DNA of 64,000 nucleotides. Source: Acytostelium subglobosum LB1. Taxonomy: Eukaryota > Evosea > Eumycetozoa > Acytosteliales > Acytosteliaceae. A program made the position numbers and the translations under genes. How positions within the stretch are numbered: position 1 is the stretch's first letter; every line of letters starts with the position of its first letter. Shown piece after piece: positions 1,687-63,001 of this stretch. Below the pieces are notes generated by a model. The model saw only the letters and a program-made list of their open reading frames with translations. It was not told the DNA's origin and ran no database searches. Location of the stretch: contig NW_012236530.1 of NCBI RefSeq assembly GCF_000787575.1, forward strand, positions 1,308,734 to 1,372,733, in the 5' to 3' direction.

Positions 1687-4600
1687 ATGAACGGAGGCAA
1701 TGAATATGCTCCGTTCAATAGGGATCATAGACAGAGTGTATCGTACTCAACAGAACAAGGTCAACAGGCAGTACAACAGAATGTTCTGAGAGAGGTGTAT
1801 AAACAATTCGAGTTGTTGCTGTTGAAGAAGAAGGCAGGTGACCAAAAGGTCACGCTGCGTCAGGGTCTGCTCGTGTCAATACCTCAGGTGGAGAAGGTGT
1901 CCTCGATGAACAGCGTGCAGGTGACACATCAGCTCGAGGTCATGTCCAATGTGCTGGTCAAGATCTCGTCCGAGAGTCTGCACGCCGTGTGCGAGGTGCT
2001 GATCAAGATGTGCGACACCTACCTCGACGACCCCTACAACATGGTCAGTCAGAGCGACAAGAAGGGCAAGATCGAGCTGCCCTCCTACGCCAAGGATGAC
2101 ATCGAGTCCGACCTCGAGATCGTCCTGGCCCACTCCACATCTGACTCACTCTCTGGCCACGTGCTCACCACAACCCTCACGCGTGAACAGCAGCAACAGG
2201 GCGCGACGACACCTACCTTGTTGTCCCCTCCCACGCCAAACACTCATACTCACAGTCACAGTCATAGTCACTCATTATCATCATCATCGTCACATGGATC
2301 ATTGGGCATGTACTCGAGTAGCAACAACTTGTTGTCGTCGCCACCAGGCTCTGGCGCTGCATCTGCGGCCGCCACACACTCACCTGCGGCTGAAGTTGAA
2401 CAACCAAAGCAGGAGTACACATACCAGGCACTGCAGCCATTCAATACATACGCACAAGTGTCGGACGACACGCCTCTGTACCATCTGCTCAACACACTGT
2501 ATCTCATACTTTCGTCGCATGCGCCGACGCGCGACGACACCGAGCTGGATGCTCGATCACAGCTCGCCACGCTGCCACCCAAGGTCATCACATTCTTCTT
2601 CAATCTTCTGCAGTTCACACAGTCACCTCGCATAAGGTACCGCGCTGCATCATGTCTCCAGGTGATCTCGCTGGCTTCGCTCGACACCATCTCGCAGCTG
2701 TTCATCACGCGCCTTCAATCTGCGCGCAATGATGACTTTTACCGCGAGTACTCAACGTTCCAGCGCGCGGCCAAGTACCTCGAGTTTGGCTTTTGTCGCG
2801 CCAACCAGGCCGACGGCACTTCACAATACTTTGCAAAGATGCTCATTGAGATGGAGAAAGCGTCACGTGCCGTCTTCATGCAGGCCATCCTCTTTACAAT
2901 AATGCGAGCATGGCCGCGCATGTTTTCCAACCCGCTGTCACGTGCACGAGTGCCCGCGCCATTCTGGAACGTCGCGACCAAGATCTATGAGCTAGTGCTC
3001 AAGTGGACCAAGAAGTCCAAGCTCAAGCAGCTGTGCGTACGCACATTGGCCATCATGTGCTGTGCGTCCGAGGATGTGGTCCTGGCGCGCAGCGGCGATC
3101 TACTATCACTCATTGGCAACTCACTCAAGGAGACCAAGACTAAGCGACCATATCTCGAAGCGCTGGTCACACACTTTAATGGACTCAAAGGTCTGTTTGG
3201 AAGCGAGGCCAAGGCACCCTTCTATCAAGCACAGGTCGAGATGATTCTGCCATTCATCTTGCCAAAGAAATCATCACCAAGTGATCTCGTCCTCCTTCTC
3301 GAGGTCCTTCTCTCCATGGGACGCTTCAGTCTCAGCATTGTCGTCTCCAAGTACATCCTCGGAGTACTCGCGCCATCAATGCCTGGCAAGCCACCCGAGT
3401 ACAGTCTAGAGAGCAAGGCTGTCGTGCTCAAGGTATGTTCATTGTTTGATTGAGTGATTGAATGATCATGGACTAACTTCATCTTTCCATTCATTAGATG
3501 TTGAGCTCATTGAACACAGAGTTCCCAGAGGCAATGCGAGCATATGACAGGACATTGTGGCAGACTTTGGACGTTGTGTTCTCAACATACGATGGAGACA
3601 GCACACCGATGAAGTACATTCTGCTGAACTTCCCATCGCTGTGCTCACCCGAGTCTCAAAAGGACATTGGCGACAAGATTACAAAGTGGACATGGCATTT
3701 GGATGGCGAGGTCGCAATGATGGCCACGATCGGCATCGTCAAGTACCTGTTCAATCAACCACAGCAGACATTCCCATCGATCCTCTTCCAGATGCTGACT
3801 TACATCACCAACTACTTTGGCGAGATTGCCTCACTGTCCAAGGTGGTCAAGAACATATGCATGGTAATTGAGGAGTTCATCGCGCTGCACTACCTGCCCA
3901 ATGGCGAACGCAAGTGCTCGCCACAAATCGAGCCCACCATGTGGAAGAACCTGCGCGAGACGTCCGAGGGTGTTGCGCTGTACCTACTATCGTCCAACGT
4001 CACATCTCTCTGGCCACAAGTGCTCGAGTTCATTCAGTTGACAGGCCACGAGATCTTCCGCGAGATTGACCGCGCTGACAATGTGGCTTACCTGGCGGAC
4101 TACCTTCCACACCGCACGTTCTCGTCCCTTCCATCCAAGCCGCCTCACTTGGACCTGGACAGCGTGGAGTACAACTGCTTCGACACACTCATCCCTGCAC
4201 TCAACCCCGACCTGGCCTACTTCTTGCAGATACACAATGGCAACCTGCAGGGCAGCGTCAACTGGGCATGGACCCGTCTGAGGAAGCGCTGGCACCCCAA
4301 GAGCCAACCGATTGGTTGGAAGAACAACCTGGCCTTTCTACTGCTATCGCTGCGTCTCAATACACAGTCGCCCGAGATCACAGCCGTCGAGGACCAGCTG
4401 CTGACCGAGGTAATGACATCATACTTCCAGGAGCGCGAGGGCAAGACTGGCGAGGAGATGAGCTACATGATCTCTGAGCTATCACGCTACATCCATCAAT
4501 CGTGCTACGATACTGTATTCCGCTTCGTCGAGCAGGAGCGTGGACGCGACCTCAAGAAGAAGAAGAAGGAAGTCTTCTACGTCCAGGAGCACGTCATTGT

Positions 4601-7600
4601 CTATATCAGCCAGCTGTCTGCACGCATCACCGTTGCCGACTATGATGGCACCACATCGATACGTGCGGCACTGCGCGAGGTCACCTACTTCTGGATCACC
4701 AATGTACAGGTGTTCCAATCAATGCCAGCCATCGTGCGCAATCACTGTGCCAACCTATTCAAACATTTCCTCGCGCTAGACAGCAAGAGCACCATCCCCA
4801 AAAGCGAGATCTCGCTCAACAAGGCCTCCTACACCAAATTGATCTTCCTCTGTTTGCAAAGGTATGTATGAAGCTTGGGTCTCTCACTCAATCACTTAAT
4901 CACTAACCCAATCAATCAATCGGATAGCTTATCACTTGGCGCAATGACCAATGAGGACACGATTGAAGGAGAGTTGGAGTTGAACATTCAGAGGGCATTC
5001 AACTTGCTTGTGTCCGAGTCATGCCTGGACGATTACAAATTGGACATTGTTGGATTCTTGATCAAATGTCTTGGCTATGGCATCCACCTACACCAATTGA
5101 TTGCAGAATCCATGGCCATATTTTTAAGACGCACTCCAAGCTACCTCGACGAGTTCATCGAGCGCAGCTTTGATAACGAGAAGCAACAGCTTGCCTCATT
5201 CACCTTCCTCCGCGCCTTAGTAATCAACTTTACACAACACTACTCGAGCTGGGCTCACGACTGTCCTCCCGAGAGGCTGTAAGTATCCATCGCGGATCAT
5301 TCCTGATCGCATGTGCAATGACTAACCCATCACAACACACTTCTAGCGTGCACCTATGTCTATTCCACATGGTATCGAGTAACGCTGAGGCGAGGAAGCT
5401 GGCGTGCACATTGTCAAACACACTGGGCCAGCAGTCGGAGGATGGACAGTTCATGTTGTTCAACTCACATCAGCTCACGATTCCCACGGAGAGCGTACCA
5501 AACTATGTGTACAGTCGCATGGCATTGCTCTACTCCAACTCAATCAGCAACAAGTATCCATGGATGACACCACTGCTCTTTGAGGAGGCCGATCGTCAGT
5601 TCCAACATCTCCCATTCAATCACAAACAGTTGCAACTTACTCTCTTGGCACCATGGGCGCGCAATTTCTACTGGGTGGTGACAGGTGGCGAAGGCACCCT
5701 CACGGCCAAATCGCTCGAGAACATGTTGGACTCGTTGCTCAACATCTCCATCCAGGCGCGCACCAACCCCAACATGCACACTGCACTTGAGGTCCTCTGG
5801 AGCGAGCTAGCATCGTCTGGTGACAGCACTGGACCCACGGGCACTTACAACGTGTACAAGCGCGTGATTGACTTCTTGAAGGAGCGCTATCACTCGGAGA
5901 AGTTCCAGCCCGAGACCAAACACACGTGCAAGATGGCCATCTGCTTCATCTCTCGCCGCTCCAGCTCACACTGGACCTCTGTGATGGAGTACCTGATGAA
6001 GTCACTGCGACACTACAGTCTGTTGCCGCCATCACCTATCCAGTTCGTGCAGGAGTTCCTCAACAATGCTGAGAACCAGGCCAAGGACGAGCACATCTCG
6101 GCACGCTCCGAAGAAGCCTACATGTACTTCCTCGAGGACATGACTTTTGAGTTCCAGCTCAAGGACGTGCTGAGCATCCCCAAGCTCGTGCCCATGCTCC
6201 TTGTTAACGCCGTGCTCGTGTTTGGTCCGTTCAGTCGCACCGCCCAGCAGCACCAGAAGGAGCGCCCGCATACAGACAAGTCGATTGGCAAACGCATCGT
6301 GGATAACATACTCTACTCACTCGTGATCCAGCAGCCCACGATTGGCGATGACATCAAGGACGAGGCCATGCAGCTAGTGACCTCGGACTGGGTGACATGG
6401 CGCGAGAAGGAGCGCATTCAGTTCATTCGAGTGCTCCAGACCGCGTTGGGTGACAACATCATGGAGATGTGGGAGCAGATGGTACTGCAGCTGGCCATTC
6501 GCTGTAGCGACCTCCCCGTCTCACTATCTGCCTTCGACTGGTACCAAGACATCCGCACGACTATTGGCACGAAGAAGGACGGCATGGACGGCCTGCTCGG
6601 ACTGTGTTGCGGTCTTTGGCGCGCATGTATCATGGGTAACGTCGAGAAGATGTACAAGACACTGGGCGTGCTCAATGCGATTATTGCGAATGGCACACGA
6701 TGTATCAACTCAGACACATCATATTCAATCATTGTGCGACTGGGATCCATCCTTCTGCACACGTCCTATCTCTCGCAGTTCAACTCAGCGCTCACTCTAC
6801 TCAATCGCACCACCCACTCGCTGTCGGGAACACCCGCTCTCAAAGCCCGCATCACCGAGGAGATGATAGATATTCTTGGCGCGGGAATGAAGACCGAGCA
6901 AGTGGTCAATCGTGGCATCGGTCATCCACAGACCGCCTTGCTCACTTTATGGTTCGCCAAGGAGTGTGCACAGTTCTCCGAGCAGAGGAAACATCGCGTA
7001 CAGCCAAGCTCAATCATCACAACAGTTTTGCTCACAGCGAGCTGCATGGCATCTATGTCTCCACAGGACCCACTCACACTCGACTTTATGGACTACCTCT
7101 TGGACTCGCCCAGCCAGCAGCTCAATGCGCATCTCGACCTCTTGCATGAGCACTATCGCTTCGTGTCCAAGTCGATCAGTCAGCCACCCTGCACCACTGA
7201 GGAGTTCATCGGACTCATTTGCCAGCACTTCTACGAAGCTTTCGCAGACACCACGCCAGACCTTCTCTCCAATCTGATCCGCTCAGTCACTGAGCTAGTC
7301 ACATCATTGATGGACTCGAGCCGCGAGAAGGACGCTTCATTCCTGCTGTCATTCATCAAGGAGATGATCAAGATAATGTCTGGCTCATCGGCCATCATCC
7401 AGCCTACATACCTGGTCGAGTTCATCACGGTGATAATTGAGGTGTGCCAGCGCTCTTCGTCCGCATTCACACGTGCTAATGCTCAGAACTTGATCCCATT
7501 CATAATGGACAACCTGCCACCGGGATTGCAGGTTGGCGTGTTTGACTTTGTCAAGCCGTTCACCAATGGCTTCGATAGCTCTGTATCCTCAATGTTTGGA

Positions 7601-27622: not shown

Positions 27623-28966
27623 ATGTCACAGAAAAGGAAAGATATAGAATCGAACGAAGAGGATAAACCAGAGAAGAAGAAGAAAAAACCTTCATGTGCA
27701 ATCCCAGGAGGGTTTCCAGAGTATGTGTTTTGATATGATAATGATGCTCTCAAACATGTTCATTAACATTTTACTAGGTACCCTGTCCTGCAGGAGGTTC
27801 TCAAGAGATATAGTTGGACCACGATCAAGGACCCCATATTCACACCCAAGTACGAACCTCATCTACCATCATGGAAGAACATTCCAACGTCAGTGAATCC
27901 AATTGACTACTTCAAGTGCATGGTTAATCAAAAGTTGGTAGATAGGATGCTTTATGACTCGAACAAACTCGATCAATTTCAGAATGCAGCCAAGCTACAA
28001 TCAAAGGAAGTCTACACATACATTGGGTTGATACTAGTCAGCGTTGTTATGGGAATCTCCAACCACCCGGACCTCTTCTCCCATGGAGAGTACTCGTATA
28101 CATATCCTGGGAAGGGTGAGGCCATGGGCAAGGACCGGTTCAGCGTCATCCACCCTCACTTGACAATCAACCTGGAGAAGATGAGAAGCATCCTCGAGAC
28201 CAACTTCCTACATCACCTGTCGCCAGGCACTTTTCTTACCATTGATGAGTCAAGGATCAAAGCAAAACCAACAATGCATGCTGGCCTCAGTTACAACAAG
28301 GAGAAGCCAGAGAAGTGGGCGTTTGAAATCAACACTATTGGTGACACAGATACACGTTATTTGCTTGGGATGATGCCATCAAAGGAGGCGACAGGAGAGA
28401 TAGCTTTGGCCCAATTGATTGAGAAGATGCCACTCGATAAAGACAAACACTACCACCTCACTGCTGACAGCAAGTTCTCAAACTTTGCTCAACTCAAGAG
28501 ACTCAAACTTATTGGCATCGAAGCAACTCTCTGTATTAAAAAGGGCAGACTGCCCTCAGAGGTCTACAAGGTTGGAATAGCTAATTGTTTGCCTCCAGGT
28601 CTCTCCAGGTTTGCTACACAGGAAGGCATAATTGCTGCAGCTTACCACAACAAGAAAATAATCCAGCTCGCGACAACCTTCTTCGATGTCCAGGAATCTC
28701 CAGAGAGAAGGTTACAATCTGAACGACAGGATATACTAGATTTGTATGACGACACCAAGAGAGGTCTTGATCAGTTCAACCAACTTGCAACTTACTTCTG
28801 GCATGACCATCCCCATTCCTCACAACAACAGAGTCAACAACTTGGATACATTTCCTATGCCCTTACCAACTCCTATATTATGTATACAAGGAATGTCAAA
28901 GATCCAATGTCTCATCGTAACTATGTCAAGTCGATCGCAAAGAGTCTGCTTGTCAAGAATGAATGA
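27623..28966 (+). CDS. PiggyBac transposase-derived protein (428 residues), candidate domesticated gene
   Basis: Two exons, 27623..27720 and 27778..28966, joined in frame by a 57-bp GT-AG intron. The N-terminus has a basic nuclear-localisation-like run (KKKKKK near residue 20). The rest is a DDE_Tnp_1_7 (piggyBac) catalytic core: FLTIDESRIKAK (D189), LTADSKFSNFAQLK (D263) and KRGLDQFNQLATYF (D364). Spacings of 74 and 101 residues compare with 78 and 101 for D268/D346/D447 of the moth enzyme. All three acidic residues are present. The protein stops about 65 residues after the last Asp and lacks the Cys-rich DNA-binding tail of piggyBac. I found no TTAA-flanked CCC-type terminal repeats, though a gap hides part of the left flank. 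The open frame and an intron suggest host use, but a recently arrived transposon is not excluded. Confidence 0.85.
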
Positions 28967-29723: not shown

Positions 29724-32700
29724 ATGTCACTGAATATAAATATAATGGACACGGATGTGGACAACATTGAGACTAATGTTGAGCCTGCTGCAGTTGCTGA
29801 GGTCGAGGGACAGGGTACATTGGTTGACCCTTCAGCATCCATAGTAATCAACTCTGTGGATGATATCAAACATGTCATACTGACATCCAAGCTCACACTG
29901 ACTCTGGCCAATCGTATCTTCAACTCACCTCTGAAAGATGAGTTTATCGTAACCTACTTCATCCTGTTATCAACCTTGGGTATGTCATTCATTCATTCAT
30001 TCATTCATTCATTCATTCATTCATTCAATCAAGTCATGTGTCGTCCAACCAATACTAACTTTGTTACCATATTATATAGAGCTACATTCAACTGCCAAGG
30101 TATCATTCCTAACATGTGTTATACAGAATAGTCAATATGAGTTGGCCAGGACATTGCTGGACACTCATAAGTTCACATTCGTTGAGATACTAAAGTGTCT
30201 AAAGGTCTTGGATTCAAAGCGTGCATTGAAGGTGTATAAGAAGAAGCTAGAGTCAATGGTGTCCAAGTACACCGAGCGTAAAGATCGTCTGACCAAGGCC
30301 TCAGACGAGTATCTGGCCAAGAAGGCACTTGATGATGCCGAGAAGAAGAAGCCCAAGAATGACTCCAAGAAAGACTCCAAGACTGAGTCCAAGGAAGACT
30401 CAAACAACATCAACGACGATGAGAACAACAACAACAATAATGTAAATAGTGTTAGAGGAAGAGGTGCCCGTGGTGGACGTGGCGGACGTGGCGCTAGAGG
30501 TGGAAGGCCAAGTGCTCCTGTGATGGCAGTGACTGAGGATGCTCCAGAGCTTGATAAGAAGATGAATAAGAAGGTGAGAGAGATGCAGTTTGAGCAGAGG
30601 TATCAGAGCTCAAAGAGATTCATGGAGAGTAAGATTACAGAGTTGGAGCAGTACCAGTGCAAGGGAAGCCTGTGTGGCTCCGTGACCAAGTTGTTCAAAC
30701 GTTGGTTCCAGACCGTGCCTGTCAAGACACTGGAGTTCTTTGCACTCGGTCAACCAAAGGAGACGTGGAGGGAGATTGCCAACCTGCTGCATCTGGCCCC
30801 ATCCGACTTCAAGCTGCCCTGGTTCTTGGAGTTCATGTTTGGCAAGCCCGCACCAGAGAGCACTTCAGTGCGCGCCTTTGACGACGCCAAGGCCCTCCTC
30901 GAGGCTGGCAGGCCCGTGGTCTACGGAAATCTGATATCCATCTTCAAGCCACCCTACTCATTCTTGCGCAAGCGGCTTGGCGACTTGTTCACCGACTCAC
31001 TCAAGGTAAAGGTGGCCACCTATGAGGACCTGTCCACTGTGCTCTGGTGGTATCACGAGTTCAAGGATGTCCATGGCATTGATGACATGATCGTGCGTCG
31101 TCTGGCTGCACGCGAGCCACTAACATTGGCCTATGGCACACTGATTGAGAAGACCCTGTCGCTGACCAACTCGGCCGAGCACTCCAGAGTGTTCAATGCC
31201 CTGCTCAAGGCGTCCATGCAGCGCCTGTCGACCTTCTCCAACAGGTTCTCGCTGCCACCGCCCATCGCCACATTTGGCGATCGCTCAGGCTCGATGGAGG
31301 TTGCCATCCGTCTGTCCACGATCATTGGATACCTGGTCACCAACCTCACGCCCAACTCCACACTGTCCTTCTTCAATACCGAGACCATGAATGCGCCCAT
31401 CACGCCATCGTCCATTGAGAAGCTGTTCAAGCTGACTGATGTCGTCACGGCTGATGGTGGCACGGCCAATGCCGTGGCGCTCAAGCCATTCCTCGATTCC
31501 AAGACACCACTCAAATACATTGTGATGGTGACGGACGAGGAGGAGAATGAGGATGTAGATGGCATGAGGTTCGCCGAGATGTTTTCCAGGTACAAGAAGG
31601 AGGTGGCACCTGACTGCAAGGTCATCTTCATCTCGTTCCTTCAACCTAATCAGCGTGGTCACATGGTCTCTGACCTCGAGGACAACTACAACATCGAGCC
31701 CATCCAGTTCGTCCTCGATGGTGGCAAGCCCGACGTCACCAAGATCGATCACATGTTAACTTCACTAGCTTGTGAGTCGCCAATGTTCACATGTAAGTAA
31801 CACTTAAACGATCAATCAATTAATCAATCAATTAGACAAACATACTAACTTATGCATCCTCTCTCACATTAGCCCAACTGGAGTTGTTGTGTAAGGTTAT
31901 GTCATTGTTTGGAACAGAGTTCTTTGTCAAGTATCTGAATGCCAACTCATCAAAGTTGTTGACTTATGGACTCAACTCTGAGATTGAGGTCATGATCCTG
32001 AAGCATCTGCTTCAGTTCTACATGAAGAAACTGCCCAAGGACAAGGACAACACGTTGTCTCACTTTAGTGGCAGAGTGTTCAATGAGGACAACTGCATCA
32101 AGATGATCAGCGCACATCTCAAGAGCCTGGTGGACGTGTCCAAGCAAGCTGGTCTGGACACCCTGGTGTCCTTTGTTGAGGACGCAGTCAAGACGTTCAA
32201 CTCGTTGGAGAGGAAGAAGTCGGTCGAGTTCCTATCCAGTGTGTTTGAGACGCTCGACCAGGACTACTTCATCAAGAAGGTCGATCTGCCCAGCCACACC
32301 GGCGACGACCACGATAAGATCGACGCCAACAATCTTGCCACAGACCCAATGGCCTTCAAGGACAGGCTTTGCCAGGGTGAGCTGTCCATCCCCGAGATCG
32401 TCACGTTGCTCAACAACAAGAACACAAAGGACAAGTTCATCTCTGTCTATCTGATGCTGCTCAACAACATCGAACTGACGTCCAAGGTCAAGATGAATAC
32501 ACTGTGCGCTGCGCTTGAGTGCAAGATGACCAGCTTTGCTCAGTTGATCCTGTACAATAAGAAGTACAGCTTCAAGGAGGTGTCCAAGGCCATCCAGATA
32601 CTGGACTCCAAGAGACAGATCAGTCAACTCGAGAAAAAGATGCTCAGTGCTCAGAAGAAGCATGACGACAGGAAGGCCAGGTTGGAGAAGGAGTCCAATG

Positions 32701-35700
32701 ATTATCACGAGAAGATCAAGGCTGATCCAAACAACAACAATGCCACTACCACGACCACAACTAAGACCACTACCTCTGCCAAGGCCAAGCCCACAGGCAA
32801 GTTCAAGGGCAAAGGCAAGGGCAAGAGTCCAGGCAAGGGTCCAGGCAAGGGAAAGGGTCCAACCAAAGGCAAGGGCAAGGGCAAGGAGGACAATGCGGCC
32901 AAGGTAGTTGGAGACGAGGTCAAAAGTGAGCCAGAGACAGAGCCAGCACCAAAGGACAAGAAGTTGTCGCCATGGGAGAAGAAGCAACGTGAGCAGAAGT
33001 TTGAGAACAACTTTGAGGCGAGCATCAAGTTGTTGCAGAGCAGGATCGATCAGTTGAAGAAGTATCAGTTCAATGGTAGTTTGAGCGGAAACGTCATCAA
33101 GATATTCAAACGCTGGTTGAAGACATTCCCCGAGAAGACGCTGGAGTACTTTGCTCTGGGCCAGCCCAAGGAGATTTGGAAGGAGATGGCCAACCTCCTC
33201 CATCTGTCGCCCAAGGACATGCAGGCCGACTGGTTCTTGCCCTCGGTCTACAACTCACCCCACACGGGCGAGGTCATCAATGCGTTTGCCCCAGAGGAGC
33301 TGCCCATGGACACGCTGCTCGAGTTGATCGCCAAGTACAAGCCATCGTACTCATACGTCAGGAAGAGAATACCAAAGGACCTGTTCACTGACGAGCTCAG
33401 GTTGATTGTGGCCGGCTATGAAGAGTTGACCACTGTCCTCTGGTGGTACCACGAGCTGGCCAGCTTTGACGTCGACTCTCTGGTCGCCAGACGTCTGGCC
33501 AACAACGAGCTGGGCCAGATGTCGCTGGGAACACTGCTGGAGAAGGCAATGTACTTCCAGCATCAGGGCATCCCGCTGTTCAACGACATCATGCCAATCA
33601 TCAGGAATGCACTCAAGGTGTTCTCGTCCAAGATCGCACTGCCCCCACCCCTGATGACACTGGGCGATGCCTCAGCAAGCATGGACGTGGCCATTAGGTT
33701 GTCCACGATCATCTCGTCACTGGTCACCAGTTTGACGGACAACGCTTCGTTGAGGTTCTTCAATCACGCGCCGCTCTGGGCACCAATCGATCCGACCTCT
33801 CTCACAGAGGTGTTCAACGTGTCCAACATCATCCAGGGTTCGGGTTCGACGTCGCCCGCTGCTGGACTCTACCCCGTGTTCGAGGCCAACCAGGAGCTGC
33901 AGTACCTGGTGCTGGTGACCGACGAGGAGGAGAACTCGCTGTACAAAGGATACAACTTCTTGACTCTGTACAAGGAGTATGTGGCCAAGGTGGCACCCAA
34001 CTGCAAGCTGGTGTTTGTGTCCTTCCTTCAGACCAATGAGGAGGGCCAGATGATGCAAGAGTTTGAGCAGGAGGGCATCAAGCCACTGCAATTCAAGCTG
34101 GACAAGACGCGACCCGACGCCACTAAGATCGACGACCTCATCACCACGCTCTCGTGCCAGAGCGACAGCTTCCTGCACCAGGTCACCGCCTTTGAGACCA
34201 TGATCAATCTCTGTGGCGAGAAGTACTTCTACAAGTACGTTGGCAAGGGCGAGGGATACTTTGTCGAGTCCTTCACATTCCAGACGCTCATGCATATGCT
34301 GAGCATGGTATCACTGTATGTCAGTGGTCAGATGGAGGAGGAGCAGGAGGGAGAGGACACTGGCCTGCAGGCCGCTCTGGACTTGGCCATCTCGACCCGC
34401 CAGTTCAAGGTGGTCACACAAGACATCTTGGACAAGATTAAGAGGTTCGCCAAGAAGTGTGGCTACAGCACACTCCACGACGCCATCCTCGACATTGATA
34501 CGACCGTCATCAATGCTCCCCTGAACGACTACCAGATGATCGAGTCGTTTGTCACCAAGGTTGACATCCTCAGTAAGAACCCAGAGTTGTTTGCCAAGGA
34601 GAAGGTAGAGTCGCCCGCACCAAACCTCCTGCTCAAGCCACCCGTCGATGCGGATATGAGCAAGGTGCGCGCTCGCGAGTATGGTGAGCTCAATGAGTAC
34701 GACATCAATATGCTGTTTGGATACCTGGACGAAATTGGATCACTCAAGAGCTGCTCTGGGGTCAGCAAGCTATGGCGCCAGTGCTCCCTGAACCCCAAGC
34801 ATTGGACGCGATTCATGAACGCCCGTGACATCCGTCAGCTCGACCTCGTGTTCCTGGTGGACGACACTGGCTCAATGGGCAGTGAGATCAACCAGGTCAA
34901 GACCACCATCAACGAGATCGTCGACGAGATCGTGTCGCTTGGATCGATCGAGGTGCGTGTGGGCATGGTCTTCTACAATGATCACACTGGTGGATCAAAG
35001 GATTCGGTGGCCAAGGTGTTTGACTTCACCACAGACATACCCGAGCTGCGCAACAAGCTCTCGGCGGTGCAGGTGAATGGTGGCAACGACTTCCCCGAGG
35101 CACTGGCAGACGGCATGGCGGCCGTGGGCGAACTCAGCTTTGCACGCTCATCGACCAAGGTGTGCATTCTCATTGGTGACGCCCCACCACACGGCTTCTG
35201 CACCAAGCAAGAGGACTACTTCCCCGAGGGCTGTCCATGTGGCAAGGATGTGATCTCGTCGACCAGGGACTTGGTGAGCCGCGGAGTGACCTTCTACTCT
35301 GTGGTGTGTCGCTTTGAGAACACGACCTACCAGGTGTTCTCGGCCATCTCTGACATGTCAGAGGGTCGCTGTGTCACACTGCAGGACGCCACACAGCTCA
35401 AGGATATCATCACTGGATCGGCCAAGGAGTCCATCCTGCTCGACATGGTGGCCAATGAGGTGCTGAAGGAGTGTGAGTACTGGCGACAAAAGGTGACGTC
35501 CTGCACCAGAGAGGAGGCCATCTACCGTGCGTCATATTCCTTGCGTGCCAAGGGTGTGCGAGTGCCACAGTTGAGAGCTCTGGCCAAGAACCAACAGCCA
35601 AAGGATCATATTTATCGCTCGATACTCAAGTCCAAGAATCATACAGAGTACAAGGTCAATGTGATCAAGGCCAAGAACTCAATACCAACCAAAGAGCCAA

Positions 35701-35816
35701 AGATTGGCAAGGCCGCATCTGTCACCACCGTCGACAGTGACTCATCCAAGCTTGAAGAATGTCTGATCAGCATTGACAATGTAAGGAAGATCGCCAAGAA
35801 GCATCACTTTTTGTAA
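29724..35816 (+). CDS. Giant triple-vWA protein with tandem Ro60-like modules and F-box-like motif (1,970 residues)
   Basis: Exons 29724..29979, 30080..31792 and 31873..35816, in phase. The protein is built of two homologous modules. Module A (about 60-690) and module B (about 770-1440) each have a helical region with an xLDSKR motif, a coiled segment, a basic linker, a second helical region (KLFKRWFQTVPVKTLEFFAL / KIFKRWLKTFPEKTLEYFAL; LGQPKE.W.E.ANLLHL in both) and a vWA domain. MIDAS motifs are DRSGSM (486) and DASASM (1255), each followed by MVTDEEEN or LVTDEEEN. The linker is RGG-rich in A and KGKG-rich in B. The vWA resembles that of Ro60/TROVE proteins (VDVSASM, GGT, FTDNE); relation is inference. 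At about 1595-1640 is an F-box-like motif, then a third vWA (DDTGSMGS at 1654) of the alpha-kinase/hemicentin type (GDAPPHG). A role in an RNA-protein complex or ubiquitin ligase is possible, not shown. Confidence 0.88.
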
Positions 35817-35847: not shown

Positions 35848-37708
35848 TCAATAAATTAAACTTTGTTTATTGTGTATTACCCATCGCCATGGCCCAACAC
35901 AATGTCCATCTGACATGTCCAGATCGTCACCCAATCTTCTAAAGTTATCGGAGACTCCCTCCAAGTCGTCAACGGACTTCATTAGTTCTACAAGGTATGA
36001 CTCCAACTTTGATCGAGGTATGAATCCAGAGCCCTTAATCTTTTGATTTAACACAAGTGACCAATGATGATCAAACCTCTCTATGATCCTCAACTTGCGA
36101 AGGTGATACATGTATACCTGACAAATTTCCAACACATTGGTTATGTTGAAGAGTTTGAAAATGTGAGCGGGGTCATGATCAAATAATCTGATCATGATTT
36201 GTAGGATTGAGAGTCGAGGCATGCCATCAGGGAGTGTGAGTCGATATGGTATCCTTAGACGTTGGAGTGATGATGGGAATGATTCCAATGGCAATACTGT
36301 GGTGAATTCGTGTCCAAAGTAGAGTGTGCGCACAGACGATGGAATCACACCTGGCGCAATATATTGTTTGAACGATAGTCCAAACTTGAGTGATGTTAAA
36401 GATGGTGGAAGCACGGATGTATCCAACACTTGATTGAACGATACTCCAAATACAATCTTGGTAACACTTGATGGGATGTCACCAACATTCAACACCCAAT
36501 TGAATTGGGTTGGGAACAACAATGTGATCAAGTCGTCTGGCAACACGCCCGTCATTGATTGATTGAATTCATCTGATTGAATGAACTTCAAGTAAAGGTC
36601 CATGCCATGGTGATGCTTGGCCAACTTGAATCTTCGATAGAATATGTTAATCTGGGTCAATGTGGATGGAAGACGAGTCGATAGTTGTTGATTGGGATAA
36701 GTCCCAAAAAATCCATGGAGTGATTCCAGTGATGAAGGGAGTGCGAATCCATTGGGTATCTTGTCATACATTATTAATGACTTGATTGAGTCGGGGAGCA
36801 GTCCCGGTTTCTTTGGTCCCGAACCACTATATTCCAACTTAATAACAGATGACGGGATGGTTCCAGGTACAACCGATTCTACAAACTCAATAAGAAGACC
36901 GAGATCAGTCACAGATGATGGAATGATACCAGGTTGCAATGTCTGATCATCAAGATACTCTAGTGATAGTGTTTTAACTGATGATGGAATGAATCCAACT
37001 GGACATGATTTGTTGATTGATGTATCCAACTTGGTAACAGAGTCTGGGATTGTTCCGACAACATGTTGATGTTGTTGGTCAAGTACGACATAATATTTTA
37101 GATAAGTGACTGATGAAGGTATTGATCCAATTGTCAAAGGATGATTATAGTATGCACTGAATAACAATGTCTTTACAGAGTCTGGTATCATTCCTGATGT
37201 CAATTGATGATTGAATCCTCCTAGATCTATGAACTCTACTGTATTTGGGATGTCACCAACAGATATCGTTTGATTAAACCATTGTGAGAAGAATAGATAC
37301 TTAATGTTCACACTTGGAATAGTTCCAAAGTTCTCTCGAACAACAAAGTATGAACCAGGTTTAACATTGCTTTCAACTATGATCATTTGATTGATTGATT
37401 GATTGATGTCAGAATGTGAGTAGAATGACTCCAAGATGATACATACCATAATCTTTAAGATGATGGATCACTAATTGATGTGTGAATGATTGTAGACCAT
37501 AATGTTGTTTAGTGCCATCGATGAATAGGAATTGATTGAATGATGGATGAAGATATAATCTAAGATAGCTATCTCTATGTTTAAACAAATATGAACAAGT
37601 CAATGCCAATGATATACATGAGTAAATATCACGTACATGTTCAACAATATGTCTCAACAACAAATGTGGAATATTCTCCAAGTATGATGATGATGATGTC
37701 ATTGTCAT
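35848..37708 (-). CDS. FNIP repeat-containing protein (596 residues)
   Basis: Two exons, complement(37447..37708) and complement(35848..37376). Exon 1 encodes an F-box-like start (SYLENIPHLLLRHIVEHVRDIYS, then SLALTCSYLF). Exon 2 encodes about 15 degenerate FNIP units of roughly 22 residues, each with an IPSSVxxLxFG / FNQxLxxGxIP pattern, between residues 100 and 455, followed by a helical C-terminal region of about 140 residues. FNIP repeats are LRR-like and hugely expanded in dictyostelids; individual functions are unknown, and the F-box-like start suggests substrate choice in SCF-type ubiquitin ligases (inference). It converges on the triple-vWA gene with only 31 bp between stop codons and is divergent from fidgetin-like 1. 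Confidence 0.9.
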
Positions 37709-37864
37709 TATTTGTTTGTTTACTTGTGATCACCAGAACAAAGAATAATCAAACTTGGACGTCTACACCCACATGTTAATAAATTCCTCGAAACTCAGTT
37801 TTCATCGCAAGTCATTCTTACTCCCATGTGGACATTGACAATGTGACATAGAGATAATATAACA
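37709..37864. promoter_or_regulatory. 156-bp bidirectional promoter region
   Basis: Shared by the FNIP gene (minus) and the fidgetin-like gene (plus). It includes TTTGTTTGTTTA at 37709-37722. No canonical TATA box is evident. Confidence 0.5.
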
Positions 37865-40118
37865 ATGCAAGGAGACACAATATACAAGATGGACTTTGGT
37901 AATAATAGTGTGAACAACTACTTTGATATTAGTTGTGACTCATTCTTGGGCATGCACTACTTTCAAAGGAATCAATTGGAGCTTGATAAGTCATTGGCTG
38001 AACAAGAACTACAGATAACAGCTAATACTGCGACGACAATGACAACGACAACGACCAATGATCAATCTGACACATCATCGACTTCATCAAAATCATCATC
38101 AACCTCATCAACATCATCATCACTGGCATTACCTTTCATTCTTAGACAGATACGACATTTGGAATGTTTATTGCTCACTTGTGATCTGAAGGGATGTGGC
38201 AATCCTCCACCTATTAGGACATCAAGTCCCAATGCATCGGGTCATCTGCCCAACAGTAATGAGTTGAGGAATGGTCTAAACAGACAGATATGCAGAGATA
38301 TGCTACGAGACTACTATCAATTGTTTGATCGAGAGATGAACCGAATCACGCCCATACCCACGCCGCCAGCCAACCTACCTCAACTACTTGGTGAGCTCAA
38401 TGAGCAAACTCTCATGGCATCACTCAAAGACATCGAACAACTGCTGCCGCCCAACCGAACCACAAGAGCCGACCGTGATCGTGAGAAGGAGAGGATCAAG
38501 CAGCAGCAACAACTTCAACAACAACAACAGGCTAGCATGGCAACTTCAATGGACACATCATCATTCACAAGGTCAAACTCTGGACCCCAACAACAAACAA
38601 GCGCGACACTCTCTGGCTTCAGCGACACGTACACATCACCTCCTAATCAGTTCAGACAAGCTCCACAGACTCAACAACAACCTCAAACTCAAGCGAAGCA
38701 ATTAAACTTCCAACAACAAGCACAGCCACAAGTTCAAACACAATCAATGGACTTGGACGAGGACCAACCACCTGACAACCCATTCAAGTCGGCAAAGGTG
38801 CAGCTGATAGAGAATCAAGAGAAAAAGAACAAACAACAGCAACAGATGAATCAGAGGAGGCCTTTGCCAACAACAAGTGCAGCGCCAGCAAAGACAAACG
38901 CGGGCAAGGTGATTGGCATCAAGAGGAAAGGCTTCATTGCCCCATACAAACAGGACGACGATGACGAGTACACCACTCAAGCACCACCAGACGATATTGT
39001 ACAGCAGCCATCCAAGAAGACAAACAACAAGCCAGCAGCGGGGACTGGGGCAAAGCCAGCGGCAGGACAGCAGCAACAGGGCAAGAAGGACGACGAGAGT
39101 AATCCGGGTGGCATAACAAACGTCAATGGAGTGCAGCTGGATGACGAGCGTCTGCGAAACGTTGAGCCACGCATGCTGGAGCTGATATGCAATGAGATCC
39201 TGGACAAGAAGCAGACAACATCGTGGAATGATATTGCTGGGCTTCAGGACGTGAAGAAGCAGATCAAGGAGATTGCCACGCTGCCCCTTCTGCGTCCAGA
39301 CATCTTCAAGGGTCTGCGCAACCCACCCAAAGGCATCCTATTGTTTGGACCACCGGGCACTGGCAAGACCATGATTGGCAAGGCCATTGCCAACGATGTC
39401 AACGCCACATTCTTCAGTATATCAGCAAGTTCATTGACAAGCAAATGGGTAAGTCATTCATCGTCGCGAGGCCATCGCCCAACATATCATCATTCATTAA
39501 CTCACTCACTCATTCAACCTCAAGATTGGAGATGGAGAGAAGATGGTTAGGGCATTGTTCGCGGTGGCTAGGTGTTACTTGCCATCGATTATATTCATTG
39601 ATGAGATTGATTCATTGTTGACTCAGCGATCTGATGGTGAGAATGAAGCGAGCCGAAGGATAAAGACAGAGTTCTTGGTGCAATGGGATGGTGTGTCATG
39701 CAATGCCGAGGACAGGATGTTGCTGATAGGCGCCACCAATCGTCCAGAGGAGTTGGACGAGGCCGCCCGTAGACGACTTGTCAAACGACTCTACATCCCA
39801 TTGCCAGAGTACATTGCTCGCTACCAACTCATCCAACATCTAGTATCCAAAGAGCACAATGAAATGACAGAAGACGATATACAACGCGTGGCTGAGAAGA
39901 CTGAAGGTTACTCTGGTTCCGATTTGAAAGCACTGTGTACTGAAGCCGCAATGGAGAGTATCAGATCCATAACAGACATTGAAACTACATCACTAGATGA
40001 CATTCCACCAATCACTGTCAAAGACTTCCTCGAGGCCGTAAACAAGATGAAACCAAGTGTAGCACAAAGTGAGCTCAAATCATACATTGCATGGAACAAA
40101 GAGTTTGGTGGACGTTGA
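37865..40118 (+). CDS. fignl1: Fidgetin-like protein 1, AAA ATPase (725 residues)
   Basis: Exons 37865..39448 and 39525..40118, joined in phase. The N-terminal 400 residues are Gln/Thr/Ser-rich with short helical blocks. The C-terminal meiotic-clade AAA domain has [16 protein letters not shown], Walker [10 protein letters not shown] (about 494-502), Walker [13 protein letters not shown], sensor 1 [11 protein letters not shown], arginine finger [15 protein letters not shown], sensor 2 [15 protein letters not shown], and the Vps4-type C-terminal helix. The AARRRxxKRxYIPLP block is diagnostic for fidgetin/FIGNL1 over spastin and katanin. FIGNL1 disassembles RAD51 filaments in homologous recombination and can bind microtubules; which applies here is inferred from orthology. 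Confidence 0.92.
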
Positions 40119-55719: not shown

Positions 55720-58700
55720 GGCTTAAGGTAGTAACTAATGAAGTATAGTAGTAGTAATAATATAACTATTTGTTGATGAAGTGATAGACACAACAAATTG
55801 AACAATGATGATGTGTGAGTGGTGTGGATGCAGTAAGTACTGACTTGTTAATATCAGATACTGCGTGGCTGACCAATTGGGAAGGAAGGGAAGTCAGTGA
55901 GTGTGTGTATGGGGAGACCTCGTCTGTCTTCGTTTAATTTACGCTCATGCACTCATTCATTCATTCACTCACTTCAATAGCATCGGGTTTTTGAAATTTA
56001 CTTTCATGAACACATACTTCACTACAAGCTCGTTAGTCCTTTCCTTTTTTATAATTTTGACAATTTCTTTGGTATTTTTTTCGAGGTCCCCGAATGCACC
56101 TCAATAGTTCAAATGTGGGGTTCGGGGTCATCCCTTTCCACTCTTGTCCCATGTTCGGGCATTGGCAGCACCTTATCATTTACTCAGTGTCAACAACTGT
56201 GTTGTCCGTATCCCATTTCCATCCCCATCCCTTGAACTCTGCATCATCATACTCCCAAGTAGGTGCAATTATTTGGGAACTCTCAAGTTTAATTGATTTC
56301 AAGTGCAAAGAAGGTTATCTCTGTCTCTCATGATGTGCAAAACCTACCTTGGTTAATATCATCACCGAGCCGGATCCAGAATCCGAATGTCCAGTTAATC
56401 AATCAATCGACCAATCAATCAATCAATCAATCAATCAATTCAATAATCAATCAATGAGAACTAAGTTATCCCTTTACATTTATCTATGTACATCAGATTA
56501 GAAAACTAACGAATGAACTTGAACTTAGAGTCCAACTCTACGATGGGACAACTAAAGTTGAAAAGTGATGACTTTGTTATGGCCATCATGTGCCACTCTT
56601 AAAGATTGTCTGTCGACCTTTCGTTGGAAACCCAGGGAAAGAATGAGAAGGTACCTTCTACATTTGGTCCGATGGTCGTTCAATGAAGGATCTGGTATAA
56701 TCTTTAAGTAAAGTACATCATGAGCCACAAGTGACCCAAACAATGCCTGATCAACAGGACCAAAGTTTCATAGCATTCATTGATTGATTGATGGATGGCC
56801 GATGAATTGGGCACGTGAGTTTTAAACAGGGCAGCCAGTCAAATCGTCAGAATGGCTCCTCATCTTTCAAGGATACGAGATATCATTCAAACCGTCGTCG
56901 GTATTGCAATGACTTGTTGTGCCTCGCCATCTCATGTCATTCCATGCCTCGCAATGGCCTTGCCACGGCCAGCCTATCCTCCGTTTCTTGCTAAGAGTGT
57001 GGTTCTAAACCACAAGGTGTCCAAAGCAAGAATAGATGATGGAGATATCTCCAAAGATGTCTCAAGACATGGTATTTATGTGTACTTGACTTTGTTTAGA
57101 GTCCAAACGGTCGAGCTGAATCACCTAGGGTGACCGACTTCGACTGGTGATCCACTCAACACAACTGCCCTGAAGCGCAGTGCACTGCTCAACCCTAACC
57201 TCCCGCGTCAATGCCAATGCGGTCCTCCGCCCCCACCCAAGATGATGGGTCAATCACAGATAATCCATCTATTTATTTATTTACCTCGAGATATCTAACA
57301 CTTTTTTTTTTAGCTCCCCCCAAGCCCTCATTCTAGATCAATCCATGAAGTTGGTTGTTTGAGTCCTTGGTGGTCCACCATCAATGACCACACAAAACAC
57401 ATACACATTTAATTATTTATGTGTTTTGTGGTTGGTGATGCAGTTGATTATTAATTATTTTATGTTACGATTGACGCAACCCGTGAAGGACAAAATGAAA
57501 AATATCTGGTCTGTGCAGAAGCCGCGGCCTGCCATGGATTGGCCACTCAATTGATCAATGTACGGAACGGCCATGCACGCGACGTGATATATTTTATATA
57601 TATCGTCATCTGTCCTATGCGTTGCTCTGTTCAGTGCAACAAACCTACCAAGTTGGACGCATTTCGCTGTCGCCTTAACCAATCCGGTGCGGAGAGCTAC
57701 TAGGATCGCTACCATCACCACATCCAAAAACAACCCGGGCAGGCCGGCCTAAACGAGCCCTCAACAAGTGTCCAATCCATCGACCTGGCCATCATCTCAC
57801 TGGCCAGATCATCCTCAGATGGCAGTGATCCAACCCACCATCTGTAGTGGGCCTTGTTCCCGACCAAACGGTTTAGAACAGGCCGGGCCTTGCTTTGAAT
57901 GATCAACTACTGATCTTTGGTTGTTTGTTTGTTTGGCTGTTGGTTTGCTTGCTTGTTGATGATGGTACATCGGATCTGATGTGTCAACCACTTGTATAAA
58001 GGTTGCTTTGAGCAGGAATCCGCATTACTTACTTTAGTTAACTCAACTTACATTCTTTGCTTGCCTTACAACAACCACCAACAACAACTAAGTTATTATT
58101 ATTTATTCAGATACCGTCATATCATACCCTTATTATCTCTGTCTCTTATTCTTATCTCTTTTACTTAAGGTAATTAGGTTAATAACAACTATGCACTCCA
58201 TCTCCTCCACCTCAACTTCACCTTCATCCGCATCCACATCCACATCAGTCCAGTCTTGTCCAATCCATTAACACAACATTGATTTGGTATCCTTTGTTGG
58301 CAAGTCAATCTTTGCCCAACAAGGTAATTAAATCGTTGCATTAATGTATATATTAGTTGTACACTACCTACTTTGTACTGTTGTTGTCGTTGATCACAAC
58401 ACACACTCACACATTCAATCAATCAATCAATCAAGTTAATCACTCAATCTCCACCTCTTAACTCATTGTTAAGTGTGATGTCTTTGTTCTTATGAGTGAA
58501 TGTGTGTGCTTGTTCTCTGTTCTGTATTGAGTTTGTGAGCAAACGAATGTGATGGGTGAGTGTGGACACACAATCACATCACTTCTCCGCAACACACCCC
58601 TCAATCACATTCAATCACCCACCATCTACTACTACTACTACTTAGGACAACACACACTCAATTAATAATGATCAACAGTAAGACACACCCAAGAGTGATG

Positions 58701-61652
58701 ACCACTCCATTTATTCGATCACCATCCAACCAACTCTCTCTCACTTATATATTTATAACATGTTCATCGAACAACCCGGCATTCCCATTCATTCTGCATC
58801 CATCACCTTGGAATGATTGATTGATTGATTGATTGATTTAGTGTTCATCCACATACATAGTCGTCATCACCAAATTGTGTGAGTGAGACAGACTGACAGA
58901 CAGTGTCCTCCAACTCACTCACTCAATCAACAACATCAACATTTATATCTATTACCTCTACAACCCTCAACACGCACCCACACACAATACACTTCTCTCG
59001 ACGTCTCGCATCTCTCCCATCACTTCCAGTGATCAGTCTTGAGTGATGCGCGTGTGATTGAGTGTGGTGTCGTTTGTGTTGGAGAGTGATTGACACTTGT
59101 CCAGACGGCCCCTCCCATGCCATGCCATCCATTGTATGCAATACAACCACTCGTTTGTCCATATGCTTGACATAAGTGGAAGTAGTAGCAGAAGTTAGTA
59201 TAGTATATGCCAAATTTATACTATCGTTGTTGGGAGGACAGTCTATAATTGTTTGTTTTGTTATGTTTTATTGAGTGATTGATTCATTTAAGTTGTCTTT
59301 GGTGTTTGTGTTGTAATTGTTGTTGAAACTCCAGCCAGAGCAATCCAACGCAAATATCATCAACTTCATCATCATCATCATCATCACCTTAACATCATCA
59401 TCACTATCCAAGTTAAACAATAAGTTTTATAACTTATTACTTATCCTATTTATTTATTTATTTATTATTTATTTATTTATTAATTAATTACCATTAAGTT
59501 CCTTTATTTATTATTTATTATTTATTATTTATTATTTAACATTTTCTCCCTGTTGTATCACAATCCAATCACCAATCAACAAAATCATTCGCCAATCATT
59601 CAATCCATCCAATCAATCAATCACACCCACATCAATTATCATAATTCTACGCACCAAATCTATAAATCCATCTGTCTTCTTTTGTGTCGTTTCCGGGGGG
59701 TCAACCATCAGCTCGCAACAAGGACTCGAAGCGGTCCACATACCCAAGCCCCATTCCCTATATTTATCTCAAACTGCGAAGTCAAGATATTGAAGATAGG
59801 CCGCGTACTCATCCATCCGTCCCCATTTCTTAAACCAAACCTCTCCCCTTGTCTCAGTGTAACTGCAGCCAATCAACAGACGACCATCATCTTCATTCTA
59901 GAGCACTTCACTCATATCGATCAATTGTTTGTTTGCACCGCTACTCAATCCATTGGATAAGAACCCTCGCATCTGGTCCAGCCAAGCCAACTACATCAGA
60001 GACATCTAATCACTCTCACCCAAAGTCATCACTTTACTCGAAAGACCATAAGAGGTAAATATAGATATAGCCAACGACTTAGTCGTTCGGTAGTACAATA
60101 CATCACCCATCTACCATCAACTTCCACCACATCCTCATCCACATCCAAGCAAACAAACACTTCCCCATCCCATCACCCAACTTGAAATGTTAATTAATTA
60201 ACATGGCGAGAGTGCACGCTATACATCCGCGGATCGTCGTTGAGCTTTTGGCTTGGGTCCCTGAGAAGGCTGATTGGCCCCCAAAAAAAGCCTCATCTGC
60301 CCAGGGCCCACACCCCAACCCATCACCAAAATTCACCCGAAAACACAAATCACTCAACTCGATCAGAACCACGCCCCACCAATCAAACATACGCGACTTG
60401 TACCATGCTATGCTCCACCATCATTCATGCCATCACCCGCACTCCACGTCTGTCCTTACATCGTCATCCTTGTGATTTATGATAAAGTGATTGCGACGGC
60501 CGGACCTTTGGCCCACTGATCGCCAATCACTACAAATTAATTAAGGATATCTCCCCGCAAAGATAGCCTTGAATAGATCACCCCAATCAGGACCTCTCAA
60601 ATCTCAACCGTTGATTGAACCCTTGTGTACTTGTGTGTTGTGTTGTTTGTTCGACGAATGACCATAGCCGTCCCGACTCCACATCGCTCGACGACGGCTA
60701 CATCCATGTCGCGCCCTCCATTCTATTTAAATATTAATATTTTTGTTGTTGGCGCTGTCAAGGATGCGCGCTCGGTCCTAACTGTTGTGGAACCAGCGCC
60801 CACCGTTTGGCATGAGGTGGTAGCGATGCTCAACACAACAAAGCCTCGCTTAAGCTCGACCTGATCAAGCTGTATTGTATGCTTGAACAACATTACTTGA
60901 TTCATTCATTCATAATTCTTTCATTCATCAGTCAATCATTAATTACTTGTTGTCAACAGATCTATTCCCTATTTCAAATCACTATCTCATATATCACCAT
61001 CACTCAACACACCACACAATCAAGAGTCTCAATCAATTAATTAATCAATCAGTCCAGAAGAAGGAAGCCCAACACACACCCTAGTACACACACTGTTGTT
61101 GATCAATCAATCACAATCACAATCACACACAACTACCACACACACATAACACATACACCCTTTCAGGCAAAACGCCCCATTTGAGGCCTACACAACCATC
61201 AGAGGAGCGTGTCCTTTCCACAAGTCGCTGATATACATCTTCCAACTCGAGTTGTGTGTGTTTCCATTCATCCAACAACCTAAGGTTCAACCTTGGCCGG
61301 ATGCCAATAGCTCCACCTATCCTTCATATATCCCAATTCATCTGATTGATTGATTGATTGCCACACCAACAAATCATTCATTCAATTTCACCCATATATA
61401 TACATCATCCATCTCTTTCCACTTCCACCTTCCACATCCACCCAACCTGCTCGCTTGCCTACAGACATCCCCCTACCCCATCTCTTCAAATTAATTAACA
61501 TAACATATTAGTTAGTCCAGACAGTCAGTCAGTCAGTCAGACCTATATTCCAGTCAATCAATCCAAGTCCAGTCCACGACCAACTTGCCAGTCTACTTCC
61601 AACAACACTACATTATCAAACACATATACACCAACCAACCAATCTACCAACC
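55720..61652. other. Nearly 6 kb without a recognisable protein gene
   Basis: Contains CAAT runs (56398-56445, 58415-58435), ATTG runs (58815-58838, 61345-61360), a TTTA-rich block (59445-59540), TCATCA (59365-59385) and long CA/CAC-rich stretches from 61000. Open frames at 56094-57133, 57455-57906 and 60190-60905 are short and match nothing I know. A TATA motif sits at 57995. The right 3.6 kb may be the long regulatory region and leader of the gene at 61653. A small RNA gene could be hidden here; I see none. Confidence 0.5.
57995..58001 (+). promoter_or_regulatory. Candidate TATA box TATAAAG
   Basis: TATAAAG followed by pyrimidine/AAC-rich leader-like DNA to 58190, where an ATG opens a 25-codon Ser/Thr-rich frame (58191-58268). 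It may mark a transcript start, coding or not. Confidence 0.3.
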
Positions 61653-63001
61653 ATGGAAATATTACCTCAGAACAGTTACCTCTACCATCTGGCACCTGGC
61701 GCAGGCTCTAGCCTGAAGCTGCAACACCTGGCGGCCAACCCTTTCACTACGACATCGGCCGGCTCGTCATTTGGCGCCGCTTCCGTCACCTCGTCTCCAT
61801 CTAAATCGTTTAGCAACAACAGCAACTCTACATCGACCACGCCAACGTCCAACTCACCATCGCCCTCGCCCAACTCAATGATCTCGGCCAACATGACCTG
61901 GAGAAAATGCTGCACCAATTCCTCTTGTCTACTTTGCACCAAGGGCACTCCCAAGTGCCTGTGCATGAACCACCCCTCGTGGACATTGATCCTTCGCGTC
62001 GTCTTCTTCGCGCTGGCCAAGATCCACCCAGACAAGGAGTACTTCAACTTAAAGAAGGAGGTGTACGTCTACCTCAACGACCATTGGGAGATCCTCTCGC
62101 CAACTCAGGCTCAGTCCGCCAACTGGAAGCGCCAAGTCCAGGACGCTCTGTCACACTCCCGTTTCTTCCGCTCGGGTCGCCACACACTCCGCTGCAATGG
62201 ATACTGGCAACTGAAGATCCTTTGCAACCCATGGACCTACAACAGCTCCAAGCAGTTTGAGGCACTCCGTTTCGAAGACATCCAGCCACACTCTCCATAC
62301 TCCCCATCCTTCCTCTCATCACAATCATCCTCTCCAGTCCTGTCCTCTGAGATCCCCTGGAGGTTTGAGACCATCTCCTTCGCTTCCTCTCCCAGAGATA
62401 GTATGTATCATCACACTAGTTCGATGCACTCAATCAATCAATCAAATGTCTAATATATATACAACTTCCAGACAAATATGTAACAGTAGATAAGATGGAC
62501 ATTAAGAAACTGCTAAGCTGCAACAACTCTGACTCTGACATTGAGCAGGAATACGAAGTGTCCTCGCCTCTGAGTTCAGAGAGTGGCGCCAGCAGCAGTG
62601 GTGGTAGCACAGTCCACGCCATCGCTCATTTCAACGCCAACGCCAACTACAACATCAACGCCCATCACGCAATCCAGCCACAACAATACAACGCATCGTC
62701 ATCATCATCATCGTCGCCAAGCAACACATTCAGCACACCAAGCAACTTTAAATTCATCAACAGTGCCAGCAGTGCCAACAAGAAGCCACGTCTCGACCAT
62801 GGCTCATCACCATCATCGTCTCCACGTGTGGCCGACGCACACTTCTTGGCCAACCTGTCCAGTCTGCCCTGCACGCTGCCCCTGCAACTGCACCAGCTGC
62901 CGTCCAAATCACCACTGTCCAAGGGTGACCGTCACGACTTTGACGAGATAGTGTCCTCCAAGATACACCAGATGAAGTCTATCCTCAACTGTACAGACTA
63001 G
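61653..63001 (+). CDS. Candidate winged-helix transcription regulator (425 residues)
   Basis: Exons 61653..62400 and 62472..63001. Residues 25-80 are Ser/Thr/Asn/Pro-rich. Residues about 84-103 form a Cys cluster (CC...C..C.....C.C). A compact conserved-looking domain follows (about 105-195): HPSWTLILRVVFFALAKIHP, FNLKKEVYVYLNDHWEIL, NWKRQVQDALSHSRFF, TLRCNGYWQLK. The pattern of three helices and a C-terminal wing with G-x-W is that of a winged-helix fold. The C-terminal half is disordered, with Ser runs and a basic KKPRLD nuclear-localisation-like site. DNA binding is inferred; I do not recognise the orthologue. The long upstream region fits a developmental regulator. Confidence 0.7.

Follow-up and report, generated by a model that had tools for sequence, protein, structure and literature searches.

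A dictyostelid protein with two tandem modules of predicted Ro60-like fold and an F-box-like end: a possible RNA-gripping receptor of a ubiquitin ligase

The genome of Acytostelium subglobosum LB1 carries, in the 64,000-nucleotide stretch of contig NW_012236530.1 analyzed here (the window), a forward-strand gene (29724..35816) whose product is a single chain in which two tandem modules (A and B) are followed by an F-box-like segment and then by a third von Willebrand factor A (vWA) domain. Each module is predicted to consist of a TROVE-like helical part and a closing vWA domain, a Ro60-like fold. The combination of these units with the F-box-like segment and the third vWA domain likely ties recognition of RNA or ribonucleoprotein particles (RNPs) to ubiquitin tagging, and the gene product is tentatively interpreted, at a little short of an even chance, as a two-headed receptor of a ubiquitin ligase of the Skp1-cullin-F-box (SCF) type that grips RNA or RNPs. 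If true, RNA surveillance would be connected directly to protein tagging. The tandem architecture, the conservation of the metal ion-dependent adhesion site (MIDAS) residues and the domain fusions found in relatives are direct observations. The modules represent a separate, mostly eukaryotic family with a Ro60-like predicted fold that is missed by the Pfam TROVE model and has repeatedly been joined to ubiquitin-ligase parts.

Two modules in one open gene

Translation of the window gives one chain of 1,970 residues, in a frame without internal stop, from three exons and two GT-AG introns. A public protein of the same strain (SAMD00019534_013090, here P0096) shows 100% identity across the queried residues 245–1560; it has 1,963 residues, as if begun at the second methionine, and is recorded only as 'hypothetical protein'. 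Modules A and B align by BLASTP with 43.3% identity over 455 columns (A 237–678 with B 1012–1446; E 4.8e-125, 382 bits), against 24.3 bits for the best of 50 shuffles of B. A sequence-only reading of this DNA had proposed two tandem modules in one gene, and the open frame, the identity to P0096 and this alignment bear it out; the motifs it had named all occur in the translation, among them LDSKR in both modules (residues 129 and 900). The N-terminal helices of A and B also correspond by eye. The extent of about 650 aligned residues given in that reading stands as a span and fails as an alignment, since it contains the basic linkers, which are of similar character (net charge of +8 across 113 residues in A and of +15 across 117 in B) but do not align to each other.

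The features of the gene, all on the forward strand, are as follows:

29724..29979 (+): exon 1 (residues 1–85), start of module A, with a GT-AG splice that restores the A–B correspondence
30080..31792 (+): exon 2, bulk of module A
31873..35816 (+): exon 3, with the end of module A, the whole of module B, the F-box-like segment, the third vWA domain and the stop codon
30229..30552 (+, approximate ends): arm and basic low-complexity linker of module A
30553..31257 (+, approximate ends): putative TROVE-like helical core of module A, by alignment to module B
30790..30792 (+): codon of His323 of module A, in the motif LLHLAP
31258..31776 (+, approximate ends): vWA domain of module A (DRSGS / T / TDEEEN)
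32379..32726 (+): N-terminal helices of module B, model residues 1–116 (AlphaFold2)
32727..32969 (+): basic linker of module B, model residues 117–197, mostly disordered according to the AlphaFold2 predicted local distance difference test (pLDDT)
32970..33638 (+): TROVE-like helical core of module B, model residues 198–420, by predicted structure
33201..33203 (+): codon of His1100 of module B, in the motif LLHLSP
33639..34166 (+): vWA domain of module B (DASAS / T / TDEEEN), by model and MIDAS conservation
34716..34814 (+): F-box-like segment (PF12937, 18.8 bits; cut-off 24.3)
34842..35411 (+): third vWA domain, VWA / VWA_4 type (PF00092, 1.2e-11; PF25106, 9.2e-10)

The intron at 31793–31872 lies within module A, so that a single open exon carries the last part of A together with the whole of B, and the A–B junction is not an annotation join. 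A split into two genes, which the sequence-only reading had offered as a way to be proved wrong, or a misassembly is therefore dismissed with near certainty: although the A-type (P0009) and B-type (P0001) proteins predicted in Tieghemostelium are distinct, the tandem recurs in two other predicted proteins.

Predicted fold and candidate RNA contact

Module B was folded alone with AlphaFold2, and module A is interpreted through its 43% identity to B. In the VIA-align comparison of the module B model ranks 1–10 are all Ro60/TROVE structures, and the resemblance covers the helical part as well as the vWA domain (Ro60/Rsr entries 1yvp, 9nen and 2nvo of the PDB; identity only 10–15%). The linker of the model falls below a pLDDT of 50 at model residues 129–173 and 178–180. 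Among the Foldseek matches of the same model the vWA domain of RGLG2 appears at rank 24. For a longer model, Foldseek placed Ro60/TROVE at ranks 1–10, and VIA-align gave vWA matches to the C-terminus with no Ro60 among the 50 best matches listed. The prediction for B thus turned out Ro60-like, not an unrelated fold, and the earlier proposal of Ro60-like helices with a vWA domain finds support in the predicted structure for B and, by way of its identity to B, for A; the Pfam TROVE model and the helical-only profile comparison (see below) do not bear it out.

Alignment of the vWA domains of TROVE proteins with those of the family reached 96.6% in hhalign, the MIDAS residues (DxSxS..T..D) are kept in 87 of 87 rows, and PF25045 (vWA_Ro60), searched at E up to 10, matched 11 of 65 members, with P0092 giving the best value (4.7e-7, over cut-off). 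Pfam TROVE (PF05731) found no match in the window protein or P0096 at E 1, nor in 23 relatives at thresholds of E 0.1 or 1, and it lies outside the 25 commonest of the 91 Pfam families matched in 65 members, hence in no more than one of the 65. Searching Pfam, NCBIfam and the PDB with the module sequence gave nothing useful.

A candidate point of RNA contact is the histidine of the motif ANLLHL(S/A)P, present in both A (His323) and B (His1100) and in all 86 rows with a residue at that position. In hhalign it stands opposite KQLIR-x-VHI of TROVE proteins, with the bacterial motif LLHVKP intermediate between the two; the TROVE profile in turn pairs with KDLLRLSHIKP in the Ro60 chain 1yvp, whose histidine, counted from residue 169, is residue 187. 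The LLH histidine thus seems to match Ro60 His187, in an alignment whose helical-only score is, for this family, no better than that of the reversed control. In PMC11277228, Ro60 is described as an autoantigen with a part in small-RNA quality control, and its H187S mutant as lacking binding to mouse Y RNA 3. A second pointer towards RNA is phrog_850, named as an RNA-binding protein, which matches the vWA part of P0024, P0092 and the bacterial relatives L006 and L007 (not the window module).

Relatives, domain fusions and history of the tandem

Because the homologue searches were confined to the 7,996 and 7,988 candidates with the most words in common, the counts given here are lower bounds; at least 95 family proteins (E up to 8e-22) were found among the 7,996. 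Their hosts include dictyostelids, molluscs (Haliotis, Aplysia, Bulinus), amphioxus, echinoderms, a nemertean, algae, protists and metagenomes. Single-module homologues in other amoebae, which the sequence-only reading had suggested looking for, are at hand, together with others in molluscs, amphioxus and echinoderms, and DDB_G0276681 of Dictyostelium discoideum offers a ready single-module case for laboratory tests. A scan of genome contigs with P0012 found nothing. The family is undescribed in the literature searched, which was mostly from non-subscription journals and available in part; the passages of PMC11277228, PMC10539598, PMC7159879, PMC7824862 and PMC12881547 contain no account of it, and PMC7159879 was set aside as a source, its passages having 'trove' only inside a reference title.

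Precomputed Pfam annotations place a RING or U-box domain in 11 of the 95 proteins (P0012, P0015, P0016, P0019, P0020, P0022, P0025, P0029, P0030, P0048, and P0063); others carry F-box (P0011), UBA (P0040), MLLE (P0042 and P0043) or TerD (P0085), and P0021 shows a partial, weak match to U-box. The ubiquitin ligase (E3) domains follow the module in P0012 and P0015 and precede it in P0022 and P0030, which suggests that they joined it several times independently. TerD is also fused to three TROVE proteins (P0185, P0189, and P0198).

The end of the window protein beyond module B (residues ~1600–1970) is absent from the sequence-only reading. The third vWA domain exceeds the cut-off of PF25106 (VWA_4; 38.8 bits against 27). 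The F-box-like segment has counterparts of graded strength under PF12937: well over the cut-off in P0011 (31.1 bits), marginally above it in P0001, the B-type protein of Tieghemostelium (24.4 bits), and under it in the tandem relatives P0097 (21.4) and P0098 (21.7) and in P0013 (20.3), which has the same order of module, F-box and vWA domain as the window gene. Together with the RING and U-box fusions seen in relatives, the F-box-like end points, as far as sequence can tell, to a ubiquitin ligase. The suggestion of a new RNP architecture made from the sequence overlooks both this end and these fusions.

Trees were built from 41 of the 84 motif-bearing rows and, in a second run, from 21 rows (P0001 and P0009 in the second only; 17 proteins without the expected motif were lost from it, many of them RING/U-box ones, and also P0010); RING/U-box rows without the motif are in neither tree. 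Dictyostelid modules separate from outside rows at 100/100 and form an A-type clade (both genes of the Acytostelium genome, DDB_G0276681, P0009, P0097_1, and P0098_1) and a B-type clade (P0001, P0097_2, P0098_2, and the window gene), with ultrafast bootstrap of 99–100 and Shimodaira-Hasegawa-like approximate likelihood ratio test values of 97–99. A and B thus seem to have split before these dictyostelids diverged; they are separate proteins in Tieghemostelium and fused in three predicted proteins, and the B-type carries the F-box–vWA end likewise seen in P0011 and P0013. A further A-type gene of the Acytostelium genome lies at G000:C41.

Relatives of the module also occur at six bacterial loci (L006–L011). 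The first, in a metagenome-assembled genome of Deltaproteobacteria, encodes a family-type protein (E 8e-67), and the others (Planctomycetota, Armatimonadetes) form a more distant group, found in 4 of 199 genomes of the L007 phylum, 24 of 95 of the L007 family and 3 of 19 of the L011 class. For this group 31 stretches from 28 genomes were taken, several ended by contig ends (G229, G232, G244:C39, and G309:C591 were left out); the motif occurs in 25 of them, and a profile of 24 of their proteins matches the window family at 99.7% (E 7e-27, 318 columns). The helical part of this group alone scored 27.3 against TROVE, compared with 21.4 for the best shuffle (0 of 40) and 13.7 for the reversed profile, a suggestive result. 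Neighbors were looked for solely with tblastn queries from L007, L011 and the window. In 3 of the 31 stretches (L072, L078, and L081) both an E1-like ThiF gene and one recurring unnamed gene lie on the same strand, and a VWA_4 gene related to the C-terminal vWA domain of the window protein lies directly downstream in two (L073, E 4e-30; L082, E 8e-26), both counts standing without a chance control. L081, in which the E1-like and unnamed genes are adjacent, also has Prok-JAB (1 of 31); E1/JAB neighbors were dismissed as a general bacterial trait on these counts. Structural comparison against BFVD gave a close match to a protein of the giant virus Indivirus ILV1 (A0A1V0SE27; E 1.5e-27, TM-scores 0.68/0.77) over most of the length of the module model; scans of viral contigs found no relative.

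As side observations, the L006 locus (2863–4704) has a eukaryote-type module followed, by eye, by a kinase-like gene, and its genome additionally holds a planctomycete-type gene. The unnamed protein is encoded upstream of the E1-like gene (L072:2096–3082, L078:2709–3635, and L081:1772–2797) and has no Pfam match in the L007 and L072 copies scanned.

A ubiquitin ligase receptor and its alternatives

In the mechanism proposed, a vWA domain with intact MIDAS residues would close the TROVE-like helical part of each module, and RNA (possibly misfolded or small non-coding) would bind there as well as near the invariant histidine. The F-box-like segment would recruit Skp1 and cullin and the third vWA domain would hold a partner or substrate, while the pairing of modules might, speculatively, raise avidity or bridge two RNAs or RNPs. 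RNA binding, Skp1 binding and ubiquitin transfer by the window protein are what we infer. A broader proposal, possible and clearly more doubtful, is an ancient class of RNA-sensing ubiquitin ligases in which a Ro60-like receptor is coupled to tagging by RING, U-box or F-box, with the window gene a two-headed form and the bacterial relatives near E1-like or VWA_4 genes as forerunners.

Several results weigh against these interpretations. The F-box match of the gene is under the Pfam cut-off (PF12937, 18.8 bits, and 17.9 in P0096; cut-off 24.3), 76 of the 95 relatives are without a precomputed Pfam domain, no E3 domain was found in P0005, a single-module protein of D. discoideum, and tblastn gave no E1-like gene in 28 of the 31 bacterial stretches. 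Foldseek TM-scores of the model are modest (0.33–0.40 by query length, with root-mean-square deviations of 6.5–10.4 Å). Comparison of the family's helical part alone with TROVE by hhalign gave E 0.032 (equaled by 1 of 40 shuffles). A reversed TROVE profile did better still (0.0076), for which reason this comparison was not used as evidence. In the 30.7 Mb genome the Y RNA model RF00019 found no match among the 50 scored out of 3,491 candidates; the Y RNAs of dictyostelids may have diverged too far for it.

The alternative that survives best, though unlikely, is that the Ro60-shaped modules bind proteins, the helical part and MIDAS vWA domain recognizing the substrates of a ligase. vWA domains elsewhere recognize proteins, and the universal MIDAS residues, the lack of a TROVE match and a third vWA domain with no link to RNA would all fit, as would the co-purification of Vwa1, a vWFA/VIT protein, with an F-box protein in Dictyostelium, reported in passages of PMC10539598. 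Against this stand the extension of the predicted Ro60 likeness beyond the vWA domain to the helical part, the invariant histidine that may fall in the register of Ro60 His187, and the phrog_850 matches, the window module itself excepted.

It is rather improbable that the protein acts as a scaffold or chaperone of RNPs in the manner of Ro60 or TEP1, with no role in ubiquitin tagging, its F-box-like stretch being a helical spacer. The subthreshold F-box score, the many relatives without annotated domains and a separate, true TROVE gene of TEP1 type in the same genome agree with it; RING, U-box, F-box and UBA partners, however, recur in relatives, and the F-box-like segment exceeds the cut-off in the B-type P0001. 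A role as an immune or stress sensor, in which foreign RNA would be detected by the Ro60-like modules and answered through ubiquitin or otherwise, is given a slender chance: it draws on the Indivirus match, on the TerD fusions in both the family and TROVE proteins and on the E1-like neighbor of L007, which matches E1–E2 models of PADLOC, whereas the module itself has no PADLOC match at E 0.001.

Compared with known systems, a receptor of this kind would share with Ro60/Rsr the helical repeat part and C-terminal vWA domain (by prediction) and differ in having two modules, a long basic linker in each, no Pfam TROVE match, and an added F-box-like segment and VWA_4 domain. TEP1 (telomerase protein component 1) combines TROVE, vWA, NACHT and WD40 domains; the window modules follow its TROVE-then-vWA order, yet at E 1 Pfam finds neither NACHT nor WD40 in the window protein, P0096, P0097, or P0098. 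Like the RGLG RING ligases, whose vWA domain is of copine type, the family brings vWA and E3 domains together, but RGLG proteins are not known to have a Ro60-like helical part. An F-box-like segment beside a vWA domain recalls SCF F-box proteins and, in passages of PMC10539598, Vwa1/FbxwD of Dictyostelium, in which, unlike the single window chain with its weak F-box match, the VIT–vWFA protein has a separate F-box partner.

The TEP1-type TROVE gene of the Acytostelium genome (L001/L002; G000:C40:307076–308183; E 1.4e-51) encodes a protein that begins RGG-rich and whose vWA domain has, by eye, a degenerate-looking MIDAS. In the window, an open frame just upstream of the gene (27767–28966, +) contains a full-length DDE_Tnp_1_7 transposase domain (E 3.5e-30), which we take to be piggyBac-like. 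Downstream lie a FNIP-repeat protein on the opposite strand (35848–37467, −; E 2.5e-54, seven stretches) and a long low-complexity stretch followed by the start of an AAA ATPase domain (37847–39550, +). The last 6 kb (58001–64000) show a strong negative GC skew (−0.32 to −0.38).
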